This document shows, one piece after another, positions 4,006 to 17,059 of a DNA stretch of 60,242 nucleotides; position 1 is the first letter of the stretch, and each line of letters starts with the position of its first letter. Source of the DNA: a virus; IMG/VR virus record IMGVR_UViG_3300042445_000754, positions 1 through 60,242 of that record. One strand, written 5' to 3'. Position numbers and translations under genes: made by a program. The notes under the pieces are model-generated. The model did no database searches, was not told the DNA's origin, and saw only the letters and a program-made list of their open reading frames with translations.

Positions 4006-4686
4006 ATGGCGTTAAGTACAGATGATTTAGGTAACGGTGGATCCGGTTTACCAAAGACAATTAGTCCAGGAAACAAAGTGTTGAAAATCAACAATGTTGA
4101 ATTAGAACAGTTTAAATTTATTGACAATGCATTTCATTTGATATTGCATGTTGAAACCGAACCTATTGAAGGTTTTGAAGGATTTGCTTTAGATAAAGAC
4201 AATCCTGACAGAGGTCACTTCAAAGGTCAAATTGGTAGAGTTAAAGCAAGCCAGTATGCATTTGCAGATGGTGAGACCAAAACTGGTATCAAAATACAAA
4301 GAGATAGATCAATTTTAATGTTCTTACAGAATCTTTGTAAAACAATGGGAATCAATGATTGGATGTCAGCACAACATAACAAGCATGATACTATTGAAGC
4401 TTTTGTTGAAGAATTTAATAAAACTGCACCAATTAAAGATAGATATCTTGAATTCTGTGTTGCAGGTAAAGAGTATGTTGGTAGAACTGGTTATACCAAT
4501 TACGATATGTGGTTACCAAAAGCAGAAAGTGGAAAGTATGCATTTGGTGAAGTTGAAGAAGGTAAAGTTATTAGATATGATGAATCTAAACATTTGAAAA
4601 AACTTGAAGTAAACAATGTTGAAAGTTTTGGAGATGATGATTTAAACATGCCAAACAAACCTTCTACTGATTTCTCTCTAGACTAA
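4006..4686 (+). CDS. probable single-stranded DNA-binding protein
   Basis: 226 aa. The body is beta-rich with alternating hydrophobics (FKFIDNAFHLILHVET) as expected for an OB fold, and the C-terminus is an acidic, low-complexity tail (ESFGDDDLNMPNKP, ending STDFSLD) as in phage SSBs. Position immediately after the Sak4-like ATPase supports the call. Unlike the two proteins ending at 11516 and 16612, its tail does not end in aromatic residues. A strong terminator follows at once, closing the first plus-strand unit. I call it SSB from the tail, fold pattern and context, not from a diagnostic motif. Confidence 0.68.
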   Translation: MALSTDDLGNGGSGLPKTISPGNKVLKINNVELEQFKFIDNAFHLILHVETEPIEGFEGFALDKDNPDRGHFKGQIGRVKASQYAFADGETKTGIKIQRDRSILMFLQNLCKTMGINDWMSAQHNKHDTIEAFVEEFNKTAPIKDRYLEFCVAGKEYVGRTGYTNYDMWLPKAESGKYAFGEVEEGKVIRYDESKHLKKLEVNNVESFGDDDLNMPNKPSTDFSLD

Positions 4687-10157: not shown

Positions 10158-11516
10158 ATGAATATTATAAAAATAACATCAGATATTCCAAGACACAGTG
10201 AAAACTATAATCGTCTTCCAGATGCAACATTTGACATTAATATCCTAACAGGAGGTTTTGATACGGAAGTTATTGATTCATTTAACTTGATTAAAACACC
10301 GTATACCCCTAATAAAGGAGATAAAATCTATTTTTTACCCGGTGTAAATGTACCTAGAGTAAAATTTAAAAATGTATGTGTAGAACATGGCATTAAAACT
10401 ATACGAGATGTAGAACAAGCAACTGTTATATTTGCTTCTAAGAAAAGTATAAGTGATCTTACTACATCTCATTGGGCATACAAATGTAATACTCAGGAGT
10501 TCAAAGATTTTATTAAACATTACGAGTCTGATATAGATAATCACGATCTTGATAAAATAGAAACTGCATTAGAGTTTTATAATCAAGAGTTTATTGCAGT
10601 AGATTATAATCTATTTGATTGGATTGTAAACACAATCCCTGCAACAAATTCTAGTAGATACAGTGAAAGATTATCTATGATTAAAGATGAGTATGTTGAT
10701 TTATTTAATTCAATTCAAGGTAAAGAAATTCTTGATGAATCAAGTGTAATCAATGTATTGAATGGTGAAGATGCTGCTGAGATTGATAAAAGTATGTTTG
10801 AACATCTTTCAGATATGTTTGAGAGTTCAGATACAGATAATCATGTTCTGGCTATGGAAATCATGGCCAACTCTAAGTATGTAGAAAGTTTGATTTATTT
10901 AGAACTTTTATTCTATAAATACTCTCATAAGATATATGATAGACATACTAAGAATCATGTTAATTTTAAATCTTTAATTAGTTATTTAGGTAAAGATAAA
11001 AGTTATCTTAATACTGATATTGATGGTATTGCTCATAGTTTAGTTAATAAAGATCAGTTTACTACAGATAAATTAGAAATTATCATGGAGTATTTAAGTA
11101 ATGATATCCAACGCACTGGAGACAGCCAATATTTTACTGTAAAAACTATAACTGTGCATCCTGATCATATTGCAAAACTAAATTCTAATTATACTTATGA
11201 GGTGCAAAAAGATTATATTCCTACAGTAGAGGAAATTGCTGAAGTAGAAGAGTTACCAGCTTACGAGGGGTCAGAGGGACCGATAGGACCACAAGGACAT
11301 GCTGATCCAGTAGGAGAACTTGGAGCCCCAGGAGTAGATGGAATTGAATCTGTAGAGTCTGAATTTGCAGTTGAAGATAACTTTGATATCTCAACTGAAG
11401 AAGATGAAGATGACACAGATGTATTAGAGCCAGAACCTATTTCAGAAGTTTCCGAATCCCAATCAAATAACAATCAAATAGAAACAAATGACACTAATGA
11501 CTTTGAATGGTTCTGA
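10158..11516 (+). CDS. unknown replication-block protein with collagen-like tract and acidic aromatic tail
   Basis: 452 aa from the ATG at 10158 (an in-frame TTG two codons earlier is less likely). The first 340 residues are an unrecognised mixed alpha/beta region. Around residues 370-396 comes a collagen-like run of Gly-X-Y triplets (GSEGPIGPQG, interrupted by one Asp, then GELGAPGVDG). The last 55 residues are acidic and carry EFAVEDNFDIS and a final DFEWF. A closely similar EFA..DNFD motif and aromatic tip end the DUF932-like protein at 16612. The tail resembles SSB C-terminal tails that recruit replication proteins; that role is inference. The following exonuclease gene starts 29 nt before this stop. 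Confidence 0.72.
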   Translation: MNIIKITSDIPRHSENYNRLPDATFDINILTGGFDTEVIDSFNLIKTPYTPNKGDKIYFLPGVNVPRVKFKNVCVEHGIKTIRDVEQATVIFASKKSISDLTTSHWAYKCNTQEFKDFIKHYESDIDNHDLDKIETALEFYNQEFIAVDYNLFDWIVNTIPATNSSRYSERLSMIKDEYVDLFNSIQGKEILDESSVINVLNGEDAAEIDKSMFEHLSDMFESSDTDNHVLAMEIMANSKYVESLIYLELLFYKYSHKIYDRHTKNHVNFKSLISYLGKDKSYLNTDIDGIAHSLVNKDQFTTDKLEIIMEYLSNDIQRTGDSQYFTVKTITVHPDHIAKLNSNYTYEVQKDYIPTVEEIAEVEELPAYEGSEGPIGPQGHADPVGELGAPGVDGIESVESEFAVEDNFDISTEEDEDDTDVLEPEPISEVSESQSNNNQIETNDTNDFEWF

Positions 11517-12495
11517 TGAACTTGAGCTTTTCTACAAGAAGAAGTTCTATTTTAGTTACAGTGGGATCAATAAGCTATTGTTTTCTCCTGTAATGTTTTA
11601 CAATCATTATGTGCTCAACCAAAGAGAAGACAGTACAGACACGCACCTGGTATCAGGTCGTGTCTTACACTGTCTCCTATTGGAGGAGGACAACTTTGAT
11701 AAACAATTTTTAATATTACCTGGCAAATTACCAACAGAGAGCCAGAAGAAAATTATTGACAATATTTTCAAATATCACTTGACATTAGGAAATAATTCCT
11801 TAAATTTGTCTGATTACTCTCAGGAAATACTCACACAATTACTTACAGTTAACTTATATCAGAATCTCAAGACTGATCAACAAAGAATTGACAAGCTTTT
11901 AACTCAGGAGAACCTTGATTATTTTGAATTCCTCAAATCTAGTTTAGATAAAACAGTAGTTGATGAGCCTACATTAGCAGCATGTAGAATGTCTGTAGAT
12001 GTTCTTAGAGCTAATCAGGATGTAAGAGCACTGTTACAATTAGACAAAGATGAAGATGACAAAACTATTGAGGTTTACAATGAGTTATTTATTAAAGCCG
12101 AACCAAGTGAACAAACATTTGGCTTTCATGGAATGCTTGACAATATTGTTATAGATCACAATACAAAAACTATCTTTATTAATGACTTAAAGACTCTTGG
12201 TAAGTCTATACAAGATTTTCCGGATTCTGTGGAGTATTATAGGTATTGGATTCAAGCCATTATTTATATACAATTAGCAAAGCATTATTTCACAGCATTT
12301 GCAGATTATAATTTTCAGATTACATTTATTGTAATTGACAAGTATAATCAAGTATATCCTTATCAAGTATCTTCAGAAACACTAACTAAATGGAAATCTG
12401 ATTTTGATACTGTAATAACCAAAGTTGCTTGGCATTATAATAACAAAAAATATGATCTTCCATATGAGTTAGCATTAGGTAATGTAAAACTGTAA
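11488..12495 (+). CDS. PD-(D/E)XK exonuclease (Exo VIII/YqaJ-like)
   Basis: 335 aa. After an N-terminal segment FYFSYSGINKLLFSPVMFYN and the conserved HLVSGRVLHCLLLEEDNFD, the nuclease core has Asp218 (GMLDNIV) followed 15 residues later by Asp233-Leu-Lys235 (INDLKT) and then a QAIIYIQ helix, the order of RecB/Exo VIII-type enzymes. It likely resects double-strand ends for the Sak4-like annealing system. The start lies inside the preceding gene; a second ATG at 11497 is also possible. Confidence 0.85.
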   Translation: MTLMTLNGSDELELFYKKKFYFSYSGINKLLFSPVMFYNHYVLNQREDSTDTHLVSGRVLHCLLLEEDNFDKQFLILPGKLPTESQKKIIDNIFKYHLTLGNNSLNLSDYSQEILTQLLTVNLYQNLKTDQQRIDKLLTQENLDYFEFLKSSLDKTVVDEPTLAACRMSVDVLRANQDVRALLQLDKDEDDKTIEVYNELFIKAEPSEQTFGFHGMLDNIVIDHNTKTIFINDLKTLGKSIQDFPDSVEYYRYWIQAIIYIQLAKHYFTAFADYNFQITFIVIDKYNQVYPYQVSSETLTKWKSDFDTVITKVAWHYNNKKYDLPYELALGNVKL

Positions 12496-12500
12496 AGATT

Positions 12501-13082
12501 ATGGCTTTAAATTCTGTTTATAAGAAGTATTTTCAAAAATCCAAGGTGTTTTTATATCCGCTCCTTGGAATAAAAAGAGGTGTAAGTGTTGTTCCAGTTG
12601 AAACTTATTTCAGTTGGGAGGGTTACTATAACTCTGAGGATATGAAATTGATATGTGTATATGATATAAGAACAGATGAAGAGTACGTTTTATTTGAGAA
12701 AAATACTTTGTTGAAACACAATAGACTTTGTGATTATATAAAAGTAAACTCTCAAGCTATATTTACATTTGATTTTTCCGACATGGAAGATGATTGGTTC
12801 CATTTAATTAATGGAAGATATAGTAAAATACGTTTAGAATTAAAGCAAAAAATCCTTGGCTTTTTTGATAAATACAGTGGCAATTATGCATACATACATA
12901 GTTATTTGATACCTGAAAAGTATTTTAGTAACTATGCTGAACTTTTAGATGTTGAGCCTGAGATGTTGATAAAAGTTGGAGAACTATGCAGCAAACCAGA
13001 TACTGCTAAAGAAACTTTAGTAATTGAAATAGCAGATTTGGATAATATAAATGAAAAATTGTTAAATTTGTCAAAACCATAA
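12501..13082 (+). CDS. conserved hypothetical protein
   Basis: 193 aa, unrecognised. The N-terminus (KYFQKSKVFLYPLLGIKRG) is basic and hydrophobic; the rest alternates beta segments with a helix (RLELKQKILGFFDKY) and ends in a helical, acidic stretch. It sits between the exonuclease (5 bp upstream) and a small protein (3 bp downstream), so co-expression with recombination genes is likely. No catalytic motif was found. Confidence 0.65.
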   Translation: MALNSVYKKYFQKSKVFLYPLLGIKRGVSVVPVETYFSWEGYYNSEDMKLICVYDIRTDEEYVLFEKNTLLKHNRLCDYIKVNSQAIFTFDFSDMEDDWFHLINGRYSKIRLELKQKILGFFDKYSGNYAYIHSYLIPEKYFSNYAELLDVEPEMLIKVGELCSKPDTAKETLVIEIADLDNINEKLLNLSKP

Positions 13083-13085
13083 GAA

Positions 13086-13442
13086 ATGAATAAATCAATG
13101 ATGCTTGTACAAGCAACTTGGCAAGAAAGCCAAACTTTTAGAATGATTCCTACTAGCACAGACTGTCCATATGTAGAATGTATCTTTGACCCTACTAGTA
13201 ATGTATTTGTAGTGATCTCTAATATTAAGAAAACAACATTACACATGTTGCCAAAATTAGATGAATACGGTCAACCTTCTACAGGAAGTAAAGGAATGAA
13301 ACAAGAAAGACATAAATTGGAAGTTTTTCAAGAATTCTATGTTGAAGATAAAAAAGCAACAGAAGAATTAATTAAAGGATTTGCAATTAATGCAGATAGT
13401 TTTGATTACAAGAAGTTTATGAAAGAAGCTAAAAAAGCATAA
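13086..13442 (+). CDS. conserved hypothetical protein
   Basis: 118 aa. The first two thirds are predicted beta-rich (YVECIFDPTSNVFVVISNI), followed by a charged C-terminal helix ending KKFMKEAKKA. Unrecognised. It is the last gene of its unit, with a terminator 18 nt after the stop. Confidence 0.65.
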   Translation: MNKSMMLVQATWQESQTFRMIPTSTDCPYVECIFDPTSNVFVVISNIKKTTLHMLPKLDEYGQPSTGSKGMKQERHKLEVFQEFYVEDKKATEELIKGFAINADSFDYKKFMKEAKKA

Positions 13443-13460
13443 ATTAATTATCACTTGAGA

Positions 13461-13488
13461 AGGGTGAGTATATGCTCACCCTTTTTTT
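13461..13488 (+). terminator. intrinsic terminator before the DNA polymerase gene
   Basis: An 8-bp stem (AGGGTGAG at 13461-13468 with CTCACCCT at 13475-13482) has a 6-nt loop and a run of seven Ts. The 38 nt between it and the polymerase start hold an unpaired GGGGGAAC stretch and no clear promoter. Confidence 0.88.
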
Positions 13489-13526
13489 ATTTACTAAAAG
13501 GGGGAACAGCTTAACTGAACTAGCCT

Positions 13527-15431
13527 ATGAGAACACATTGGGTAATGGATTATGAAACTCTTAGAAATTGTTTCATAGGGGTGTTTGAAGATGTAAAATC
13601 TGAACACCAAGAAGTGTTTGTATGTCACAAGTCTCAAAATGACATTGTGGACTTAATACACTTTCTAAAAAGAAATCAAAATTTAAATGAATGGCATATA
13701 TCCTTTAATGGATTAGCATTTGACAGTCAAATAACTGAACACATTCTTCGTAATGAAGATCAGTTAATTTATGGTTATGGGGATGGTGAAGAAATTGCAA
13801 GATGGATTTATGGTAAAGCACAAGAAGCTATCCAGAAAAGTAATGATAGGGAGTTTGCTACATTTAGTCCTAAAGATTTAAGCATTAGACAAATTGATGT
13901 CTTTAAACTTAACCATTGGGATAATCCTGCTAAGAGAAGTTCATTAAAGTGGATTCAGTATACAATGGATTGGAAGAACATTATGGACATGCCAATACAT
14001 CACACTACTGAAGTAGAGAGTTCTCAGATTCCTGAAATTATCAAGTATTGTATTAATGATGTTAAGTCTACTAAGAAGATTATGCACTTAAGTAAAGAGC
14101 AAATTAATCTTAGGAAAGCATTAACAGAAGAATATGATATAGATTTGTTTTCAGCTTCAGAGCCTCGTATATCTAAAGAATTGTTTTTACATTTCTTAAG
14201 TAAAGAAACTGGTATAAAGAAGTATGATCTAAAACAGATGCGAACACAAAGGGATCAGATTGTCTTTAAAGATATTATATTACCTTATATTGAATTTAAG
14301 ACAGCTACGTTTCAAAATCTCCTAAAGAAGTTTCAAGAAGTGGTTTTATATCCCGGAGAAACTAAAGGAGGTTTTAAATATTCTGTCCAGTATAAAGGTG
14401 TAAAGACTGATTATGGTCTTGGTGGTATTCATGGTGCAAGGTCTAGTAAAGTTTACAACTCAACTGATGATATGATTATTATGAGCTCAGACGTTGTAAG
14501 TTTCTATCCTAATTTAGCAATTAGAAACAATTGGGCACCAGCACATTTACCAAAACAAGAATTTTCTCAACTGTATGAGTGGTTCTTTGAAGAAAGAAAA
14601 AAGATTCCAAAGTCTGATCCTAAAAATTATGTATACAAAATTATCTTAAACTCAACCTATGGGTTAAGTAATGATGAGAATAGTTTCCTGTATGATCCTC
14701 AATTTACAATGAGTATCACTATAAATGGTCAACTAAGTCTTAGCATGCTGTATGAGATGATTTGTGAAGAGATTCCAGGTGCAGTTCCACTGATGCAGAA
14801 TACAGATGGTCTTGAGACTATGATTCCTAGAGAATATGAAGCACAGTATATGGAGATTTGTGCAAGATGGGAAAAGATGACTAATCTTTTATTAGAACAT
14901 GATAAGTATTCTAAGATTGTTCTGGGTGATGTCAACAATTATATTGCAGTAAATGAAGCTGGTAAATCTAAATGTAAAGGTAGATTTGAGTATAAAGATC
15001 TTGCTCTTCATAAGAATAAAAGTTTTCTAGTAATACCTAAAGCATTGCATGCATATTTTGTAGAAGGTGTTAAACCTGAAATATTTATAAAAGAAAATCT
15101 AAACATTTTTGATTTTTGTGGTGGAGTAAAAATTAAAGGAGATTGGAAGTTTGTTGAACGTAAAGTGACAAATGGTCTCTATGAAGAACAATCTTTACAA
15201 CACACAATAAGATATTATATCTCTAAAACAGGGTCTAAAGTTATTAAAAAGAATAACTCAGATCGTAGAGAAATCCAGGTAGAAGCTGGGAAATGGATGC
15301 AGAGTCTAATGATTGACTATGTAGAAAAACCATTTGAAGAATATGATATTAACTATGATTACTATCTAGAGAAGATAAGAAAAGAAATAAATTCTCTAGA
15401 ACCATTTTCAAACCAATTAAGTTTATTTTAA
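13527..15431 (+). CDS. family B DNA polymerase with 3'-5' exonuclease
   Basis: 634 aa. Exo I is DYET (Asp8, Glu10), and Exo II-like ISFNGLAFDSQ follows near residue 60. The polymerase domain has motif A SSDVVSFYPNLAI (Asp322), motif B KIILNSTYG (Lys371 to Gly379) and motif C QNTDGLE (Asn425-Thr-Asp427). Motif C has Asn in place of the first Asp of the usual DTD but keeps the second, which is the more important metal ligand in family B enzymes. It is short for family B (often 800 aa or more), with a compact N-terminal region. It should be the replicative polymerase. crAss-like phages are known to carry either family A or family B polymerases; this one is B. Confidence 0.92.
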   Translation: MRTHWVMDYETLRNCFIGVFEDVKSEHQEVFVCHKSQNDIVDLIHFLKRNQNLNEWHISFNGLAFDSQITEHILRNEDQLIYGYGDGEEIARWIYGKAQEAIQKSNDREFATFSPKDLSIRQIDVFKLNHWDNPAKRSSLKWIQYTMDWKNIMDMPIHHTTEVESSQIPEIIKYCINDVKSTKKIMHLSKEQINLRKALTEEYDIDLFSASEPRISKELFLHFLSKETGIKKYDLKQMRTQRDQIVFKDIILPYIEFKTATFQNLLKKFQEVVLYPGETKGGFKYSVQYKGVKTDYGLGGIHGARSSKVYNSTDDMIIMSSDVVSFYPNLAIRNNWAPAHLPKQEFSQLYEWFFEERKKIPKSDPKNYVYKIILNSTYGLSNDENSFLYDPQFTMSITINGQLSLSMLYEMICEEIPGAVPLMQNTDGLETMIPREYEAQYMEICARWEKMTNLLLEHDKYSKIVLGDVNNYIAVNEAGKSKCKGRFEYKDLALHKNKSFLVIPKALHAYFVEGVKPEIFIKENLNIFDFCGGVKIKGDWKFVERKVTNGLYEEQSLQHTIRYYISKTGSKVIKKNNSDRREIQVEAGKWMQSLMIDYVEKPFEEYDINYDYYLEKIRKEINSLEPFSNQLSLF

Positions 15432-15433
15432 TT

Positions 15434-16612
15434 ATGCCAAAGAAAATTCAACACACAACAAAAGCAAATTTATTATCTATTGATTTGCCACAACATGGAG
15501 CTAGTTACACTGTAATTAGTCATGAATTTATTATTGATTATGCACACCAAGCCCTGTCTTCTGCAGGGTTTATAGTATTAGATGAGGAGTACAGATGTAC
15601 TGCTGATGGACAAATTGCTCAAGGGATTTATAAACTAAACTATAATAATGATCCTGATTTAGCTATGATGTTTGCATGGACAAACAGTTATAATAAACAA
15701 GTAAAGTTTAAATGTGTAATTGGTGCTTATGTAAATAACACTGGTTCAGTTATGATTTCTGGAGATATTGGTAGCTGGGTTAGAAAACATACAGGAACTG
15801 CAGATACAGAAACACAAGAGACAATAGATTCTTACATTTCTAATGCACACATGTACTACAATCAATTATGTAGTGACAAAGCTTCCATGGAAACAATCTC
15901 CCTAAATAAGAGAAAACAATCACAGCTATTGGGTGTACTATTTGCAGAGTATGAAATTCTAACAACTGAGCAAGCTAGTATGGTTAGAGATCAAATGAAG
16001 AAACCTTATCATGTATTTACTAATACAGATAGTTTATGGGCCTTTTACAACTACATAACTATAGCTCTTCAGACATCACATCCTAAAACATGGATGGAGG
16101 ATCAAAGAATATTACACTACTTTATTTCTAGTATTAATAACTTTGCACAGGCTCCAGCAGTTGTTGTTGTTCCTGTAGTAGAAGAGGTAGTTGTACCGGT
16201 TGTCTATTCAGATCCTAATCAAACAAACTTGTTAGATCAGATTGCTGATATGGAAGCTGATATCATAGATGAAGATATCAGATATGCTGCAAATGATGAA
16301 GAAGAAGTCATTGATCGTAATATTACGATAGATGAAGTAATTGATGAAGAAGTACAGGAGTATGAATTCAAGGAAGAACAGGAAGACAAGGTATGTGATG
16401 AAACCATTATTTACACTGATCCAATGGGTAATACATTTGAGACAACTTCAATTGCTCCTTGTGCAGGACATGATACTGAAACAGAAAAAGAAATTGAAAA
16501 AGAAACTATTAAAGAAGTCACTGAAGATGAATTTGCAGCAGCAGATAATTTTGATTTAGACTTCAATGAAGAAACTAATGAAGACCCGGATAGCATCCCG
16601 GACTTCTTTTAG
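15434..16612 (+). CDS. DUF932-like protein with SSB-like acidic tail
   Basis: 392 aa. The N-terminal about 230 residues fit DUF932: a start helix with HEFIIDYAHQALSSAGF, then FAWTNSYNKQVKFKCVIGAY and SWVRKHTG. A low-complexity hinge of Val and Pro (VVVVPVVEEVVVPVV) leads to a 130-residue acidic tail with EFAAADNFDLDF and a C-terminal DSIPDFF. The tip closely resembles the DDDIPF end of bacterial SSB, and EFA..DNFD is shared with the protein ending at 11516. DUF932 proteins are phage and plasmid proteins of unknown role. It starts 2 nt after the polymerase stop, which supports a replication-fork function by context. Confidence 0.75.
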   Translation: MPKKIQHTTKANLLSIDLPQHGASYTVISHEFIIDYAHQALSSAGFIVLDEEYRCTADGQIAQGIYKLNYNNDPDLAMMFAWTNSYNKQVKFKCVIGAYVNNTGSVMISGDIGSWVRKHTGTADTETQETIDSYISNAHMYYNQLCSDKASMETISLNKRKQSQLLGVLFAEYEILTTEQASMVRDQMKKPYHVFTNTDSLWAFYNYITIALQTSHPKTWMEDQRILHYFISSINNFAQAPAVVVVPVVEEVVVPVVYSDPNQTNLLDQIADMEADIIDEDIRYAANDEEEVIDRNITIDEVIDEEVQEYEFKEEQEDKVCDETIIYTDPMGNTFETTSIAPCAGHDTETEKEIEKETIKEVTEDEFAAADNFDLDFNEETNEDPDSIPDFF

Positions 16613-16672: not shown

Positions 16673-17059
16673 ATGAAAAAACAACTAGAAGCAGTAGAAA
16701 AGTTCCATAATGCATTTGGACAAGAGAACGGTAAATATCCAAGACCTATTAGTAAAGATGACTATGATCTTAGATATAAGTTAATGGCTGAAGAAAACTA
16801 TGAGTATCTTGAGGGATGTGAAGCTAATTCATTAGTAGAGATTGCTGATGCATTGGGAGACCAACTATATATTCTTTGTGGGACAATTCTAAAACATGGT
16901 ATGCAACATATCATACAAGATGTGTTTGATGAGATTCAAGCAAGTAACATGAGCAAGTTAGGAGAAGATGGTAAACCTGTTCTTAGAGACGATGGTAAAA
17001 TTTTAAAAGGACCTGAGTACTTTAAACCAGACTTGACAAAATTTATTAAAGAAGACTGA
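16673..17059 (+). CDS. MazG-like/HisE-fold nucleotide pyrophosphohydrolase
   Basis: 128 aa, all-alpha NTP pyrophosphohydrolase fold. The metal-binding helices are visible as MAEENYEYLEG (the EExxE-type motif) and EIADALGDQLYIL (the ExxD motif). The end FDEIQASNMSKLGEDGKP with a final lysine-rich segment is typical of phage members. It probably hydrolyses (d)NTPs, for example to sanitise or shift nucleotide pools, which fits with the UDG gene. It opens the last plus-strand unit and overlaps the next start (TGATG). Confidence 0.82.
   Translation: MKKQLEAVEKFHNAFGQENGKYPRPISKDDYDLRYKLMAEENYEYLEGCEANSLVEIADALGDQLYILCGTILKHGMQHIIQDVFDEIQASNMSKLGEDGKPVLRDDGKILKGPEYFKPDLTKFIKED

Follow-up and report, generated by a model that had tools for sequence, protein, structure and literature searches.

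The C-terminal tail of bacterial single-stranded DNA-binding protein (SSB) joins a disordered linker of low conservation to a conserved amphipathic tip; the last phenylalanine of this tip lies buried within a pocket, with its carboxyl group against a basic lip, and the tip has numerous partners (PMC10164576). In phage T7, the C-terminal tails of gp4 bind basic patches on the gp5 polymerase (PMC12593628). The sliding-clamp-binding consensus QL[S/D]LF is another short peptide whose usual place is C-terminal (PMC3716654). Here, we compare with these systems two proteins, P1 and P2, that are encoded on a 60,242-nt stretch of DNA from an uncultivated virus (IMG/VR record IMGVR_UViG_3300042445_000754) and that both end in an acidic tail with an aromatic tip. 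The whole stretch is called the window below, and coordinates are window positions. The elements needed for the argument are as follows.

10158-11516, plus strand: P1, 452 residues (open reading frame and AlphaFold model), with a folded core at about 1-340, weakly BRCT-like at about 50-204, and a disordered acidic tail at about 356-452
11361-11387, plus strand: peptide EFAVEDNFD in the P1 tail
11499-11513, plus strand: C-terminal tip of P1, DFEWF
11488-12495, plus strand: PD-(D/E)XK exonuclease (phrog_412, E 1.9e-22; PF12705, E 1.9e-6), starting at ATG 11488 or 11497 and running over the P1 tip in another frame
15434-16612, plus strand: P2, 392 residues, DUF932-related (open reading frame, AlphaFold model, DUF932 in relatives), with a folded core at about 1-240 and a disordered acidic tail
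16529-16564, plus strand: peptide EFAAADNFDLDF in the P2 tail, including EFAAADNFD (16529-16555)
16595-16609, plus strand: C-terminal tip of P2, IPDFF

The pair was singled out in an earlier note on this DNA, which described two proteins with unlike domains that share an acidic tail, the peptide EFAxxDNFD and an aromatic tip. That observation is confirmed. Both reading frames and both motifs are present, and the DNA pattern for EFAxxDNF[D/E] has exactly two matches in the 60 kb record, one in each tail. The cores of the two proteins have nothing in common in sequence or predicted secondary structure. Both genes belong to one replication operon, in which profile matches identify a DnaB-like helicase, a Sak4-like ATPase, a primase, a pair consisting of a VWA/metallopeptidase protein and a MoxR-like ATPase, the PD-(D/E)XK exonuclease, and a PolB-type DNA polymerase.

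Relatives taken from IMG/VR reveal how the two tails are conserved. In P1, mean pairwise identity is 0.41 in the core, 0.24 in the linker and 0.70 in the last five residues; the corresponding values for P2 are 0.74, 0.22 and 0.67. All 106 distinct P1 proteins have tryptophan at position -2, and the last residue is phenylalanine in 97% and leucine in 3%, giving the pattern D[FIL][ED]WF with D, N, G or S at the first tip position. Among 85 distinct P2 proteins, phenylalanine is last in 99% and at -2 in 91%, aspartate is at -3 in 89%, and proline is at -4 in 73%, as summarized by [ITV]PDFF. Ending in an aromatic residue, with a strongly acidic stretch over the final 30 positions, is a property of 175 of the 187 P1 and P2 proteins and of none of 1212 proteins from the other families of the same module. 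Both proteins thus combine a poorly conserved disordered linker with a strongly conserved C-terminal tip, and both place a terminal phenylalanine behind acidic residues, as in the SSB tail; neither has a tip of the DDIPF type. The earlier note's likeness to SSB therefore stands for the architecture and fails for the tip sequence itself. Since the tips never swap between P1 and P2, the two tails are alike as one kind of feature, not as one sequence.

The internal peptide is much less widespread. EFAxxDNF is carried by 11 of the 106 distinct P1 proteins and by 12 of 86 distinct P2 proteins, as compared to 0.001 and 0.0045 carriers expected from shuffling of the tails. The case for a shared peptide rests on these relatives, because the window pair taken alone is only mildly unusual (a 9-mer with 7 identities is reached by 10 of 600 shuffles). 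A scan of all IMG/VR contigs with the DNA pattern returned 55 stretches, in which every match lying in an acidic C-terminal tail belongs to P1 or P2 and the rest fall in unrelated proteins; when the motif was relaxed slightly, P1 and P2 were still the only families to carry it among 12,099 open frames. The P1 tree calls for at least 5 gains or losses of the peptide, and 6 of the 11 P1 carriers form one clade, so that the carriers are not fully independent. Counted by genome, the peptide is found in both proteins in 2 cases, in P1 only in 7, in P2 only in 9 and in neither in 61, and no clear pattern of mutual exclusion emerges. A looser motif, xF[DS][LF][DN]F, is common in P2 tails. Conservation of the tails among relatives was one of the tests that the earlier note had set for itself. 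The tips are kept far better than the linkers, so that the note proves stronger than it claimed in this respect, and weaker with regard to the sharing of EFAxxDNFD, which only a minority of either family carries.

We propose that the tails of P1 and P2 are C-terminal docking tails of the SSB and T7 kind with a portable accessory peptide, a reading to which we give roughly even odds (about 0.5). The long disordered acidic linker would position the amphipathic tip; by analogy with the SSB tip and with the tails of T7 gp2.5 and gp4, the aromatic side chain at the end of the tip, together with the carboxylate, would enter a hydrophobic, basic-rimmed pocket of a partner. Acidic residues could steer the tail to such a pocket and P1 and P2 would thereby be tethered at the fork. 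The tips are family-specific, WF in one case and DFF in the other, and they probably differ in the pocket or mode that they use. EFAxxDNF[D/E] may be an accessory docking peptide that has been repeatedly gained and lost, and perhaps provides the route by which both proteins reach one shared partner. The likeness to the SSB tail (DFDDDIPF) includes the divergent disordered linker, the acidic amphipathic tip that forms the very C-terminus and the last phenylalanine. Here, however, no SSB domain was detected in the carriers, of which one is weakly BRCT-like and the other DUF932-related, and the tips are D[FIL][ED]WF and PDFF. The tails of the T7 gp4 helicase and the gp2.5 SSB resemble the present case in that, within one phage, replication proteins without relation to each other have acidic C-terminal tails; they differ in that no sequence relation is apparent, P1 and P2 are neither helicases nor recognized SSBs, and the EFAxxDNF peptide is an extra element.

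Several points weigh against the docking-tail interpretation. Tips that never swap between the families do not point to a common pocket. Most P1 and most P2 proteins do without EFAxxDNF, the core of P1 is itself acidic (median net charge -19), and the relatives from IMG/VR are not independent samples. Finally, the overlapping exonuclease gene constrains the P1 tip as well; because the tip shares its DNA with the exonuclease start in another frame, its conservation is no evidence by itself.

This overlap (11488-11516), which the earlier note missed and which alone could fix much of the P1 tip, offers an explanation of its own: the tip would be the exonuclease start (LNGSDE, LTGSDE or LIGSEE) read in the other frame, with selection acting only on the exonuclease or on a coupling signal. 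In favor of this explanation, the overlap is present in all relatives examined except L113-L115, the tip variants FEWF, IDWF and FDWF pair with LNGS, LTGS and LIGS in the exonuclease, and the 94 sequences with the overlap all use TTC for the P1 phenylalanine, the codon that the exonuclease serine demands. The codon positions nevertheless argue against the exonuclease as the only selected product. Inside the tip, the third positions of exonuclease codons at -9, -6 and -3 are invariant (94 of 94), even though they are free for the exonuclease, while in the downstream, exonuclease-only coding sequence third positions average 0.86 bits. At -7, the third codon position of P1 varies almost freely (0.24 bits), despite the change in the exonuclease residue that this entails. 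From this codon-position pattern, both P1 and the exonuclease appear to be under selection over the shared DNA. Moreover, in L113-L115, where there is no overlap, P1 still ends in LTWL or LQWL with different DNA. An element acting at the DNA level was also considered at the P1 tip and is unsupported by the match count, the tip string having 3 matches with up to 2 mismatches in the window versus 2.9 expected. The overlap would in any case leave the P2 tip unexplained. That tip is free of this confounder in the window, the next gene starting at 16673; across relatives its last codon is TTT in 38 and TTC in 38, and third positions vary freely, which points to conservation at the level of protein. 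We judge it improbable that the overlap alone accounts for the P1 tip.

Slightly less improbable, and still unlikely, is mimicry of the host, in which the tips would imitate the tip of host SSB and draw SSB-binding proteins to the phage fork, or, in a decoy version, titrate them. The acidic tail, the terminal phenylalanine and the nearby proline of P2 (IPDFF) fit such a role, and the partners available to an SSB-like tip are numerous (PMC10164576), but the P1 and P2 tips differ both from DDIPF and from each other, and their fixity in very diverse phages fits a host partner and a phage partner equally. The earlier note had offered decoy and recruiter tails side by side; the decoy version is without any support, and the data do not tell the one from the other. 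A further possibility, which we regard as quite remote, is that each tail regulates its own protein, acting as a DNA mimic that covers a putative DNA-binding surface and is anchored there by the aromatic tip. The tails of T7 gp2.5 and E. coli SSB are known for self-covering of this kind, and the P2 tail, at a median net charge of -46, is very acidic and lies beside a near-neutral core. An acidic tail would hardly cover the acidic core of P1, however, and the tails have low confidence in the models, with no intramolecular contact evident. Most doubtful of all is chance, by which acidic low-complexity tails would yield look-alike strings and EFAxxDNFD would be a coincidence. The modest result for the window pair and the minority status of the motif would be in keeping with coincidence, but the excess of carriers in both families over expectation, and the confinement of acidic-tail matches in IMG/VR to P1 and P2, argue otherwise, within the limit set by the single clade that holds most P1 carriers. 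On balance, the earlier note's overall interpretation is partly supported.

What are the two carriers? P1 starts at ATG 10158 and would have 454 residues only if an upstream TTG were used. In its AlphaFold model, built with 51 relatives, pLDDT stays mostly above 90 up to about residue 320 and is under 50 across residues 356-452. At about residues 50-204, sub-threshold structure and profile matches coincide in a BRCT-like region, which is followed by a helical bundle. The BRCT profile reaches at best 16.4 bits in one relative, against a curated cut-off of 21.3, and E 0.003 in 2 of 51 family members. The VIA-align match to the BRCT fold (Z 6.2, 73 residues, root-mean-square deviation 2.7, within the range of common arrangements) covers the same residues as the profile match. 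A weakly BRCT-like character of P1 is suggestive only; the VIA-align result for the core, BRCT plus helical repeats at Z about 6, was not accepted as an identification. A fold search of viral predicted structures located relatives of P1 that belong to a crAss-like virus and to further tailed phages. The P1 linker contains, at about residues 370-395 (11265-11340), a short collagen-like Gly-x-y stretch, GSEGPIGPQGHADPVGELGAPG, for which the Pfam Collagen family gives only E 0.036. Many relatives have a further conserved peptide in the linker, (I)ERxELKSELIALEEE (e.g., L003:2718-4067), which is absent from the window P1 and was seen solely in the P1 family.

The DUF932-like label given to P2 by the earlier note holds at the level of the family, where 21 of 48 relatives match PF06067 (best E 1e-7), while the window protein itself has no Pfam match. 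The P2 model was built with 48 relatives. For its core, VIA-align offered the Fbxo7 FP domain (Z 7.8) and CapZ (6.6), middling scores that were not accepted as identifications. Neither core had a significant match when searched against PDB sequences or with Foldseek. On the question of an OB-fold domain for binding ssDNA, no SSB family was matched by the sequences of P1 or P2, and the fold searches yielded no significant match. No relative of P2 was found in cellular genome contigs.

The polymerase of the operon contributes another C-terminal peptide.

13527-15431, plus strand: PolB-type DNA polymerase (phrog_1252, E 9.4e-143), ending in QLSLF (15414-15428)

In 70 distinct relatives the polymerase ends in QLSLF (47), QLKLF (15) or QLTLF (3), accounting for 65 of 70. 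QLSLF agrees with the sliding-clamp consensus at its usual C-terminal place, which suggests that the polymerase may work with a sliding clamp, probably that of the host; it is the third conserved C-terminal tip of the module, beside those of P1 and P2. The P1 tip shares with the clamp motif a length of five residues and a hydrophobic-x-aromatic-Phe pattern, but the highly conserved glutamine is missing from the tips of P1 and P2. Clamp binding by the P1 tip, which the resemblance of DLQWL to QLxLF might bring to mind, was rejected for want of this glutamine.

Some further C-termini in the module can be recorded as side observations. A 226-residue protein (4006-4686) adjoining the Sak4-like ATPase ends in DF[SNM]LD in nearly all relatives (DFSLD in the window), which resembles a DFSLDF string inside some P2 tails. 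Its candidacy as a phage SSB was not confirmed, profile and PDB searches having given no informative match. In the distant relatives L113 and L115, neither P2 nor this PolB lies nearby, and P1 ends in LQWL or LTWL; the two proteins that follow the Sak4-like ATPase there (L115:1147-2430 and L113:2894-4147) have acidic ends with a last tryptophan (EEGVW/ENVW and GDEW/GDDW), and are not used here as proof. At 276-1043, the window also encodes a homolog of the uracil-DNA glycosylases of Crassvirales (profile matches to phi14:2 and cr116_1 at E about 1e-46); its last residue is tryptophan in the few relatives seen.

The crAss-like affiliation assumed by the earlier note is borne out, because module genes of the window match the Crassvirales phages phi14:2 and cr116_1, and larger records of relatives carry homologs of the portal (10 of 11 records searched) and capsid (9 of 11) of cr116_1. 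Within the 60 kb window, neither portal nor capsid was matched. Searches of phi14:2 and cr116_1 did not reveal P1 or P2 there, and tblastn against 50,697 annotated phage records produced no relatives of P1, P2 or the 226-residue protein. We read P1 and P2 as replication/recombination-module proteins of a Crassvirales lineage.

Perhaps, though this is decidedly tentative, the crAss-like replisome is wired by a few C-terminal peptides, with EFAxxDNF[D/E] as a portable element gained and lost in unrelated proteins, and with fixed tips (WF, PDFF, QLSLF) serving separate pockets; recruitment would then be encoded in tails and not in folded domains. P1 and P2 have no assigned function, and their conserved tips of three to five residues are directly testable handles. 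At the junction of P1 and the exonuclease, one short DNA stretch is apparently held by two proteins at once. If unrelated proteins of a single phage do have a peptide in common, this would be a case of docking peptides arising in, and moving between, genes.

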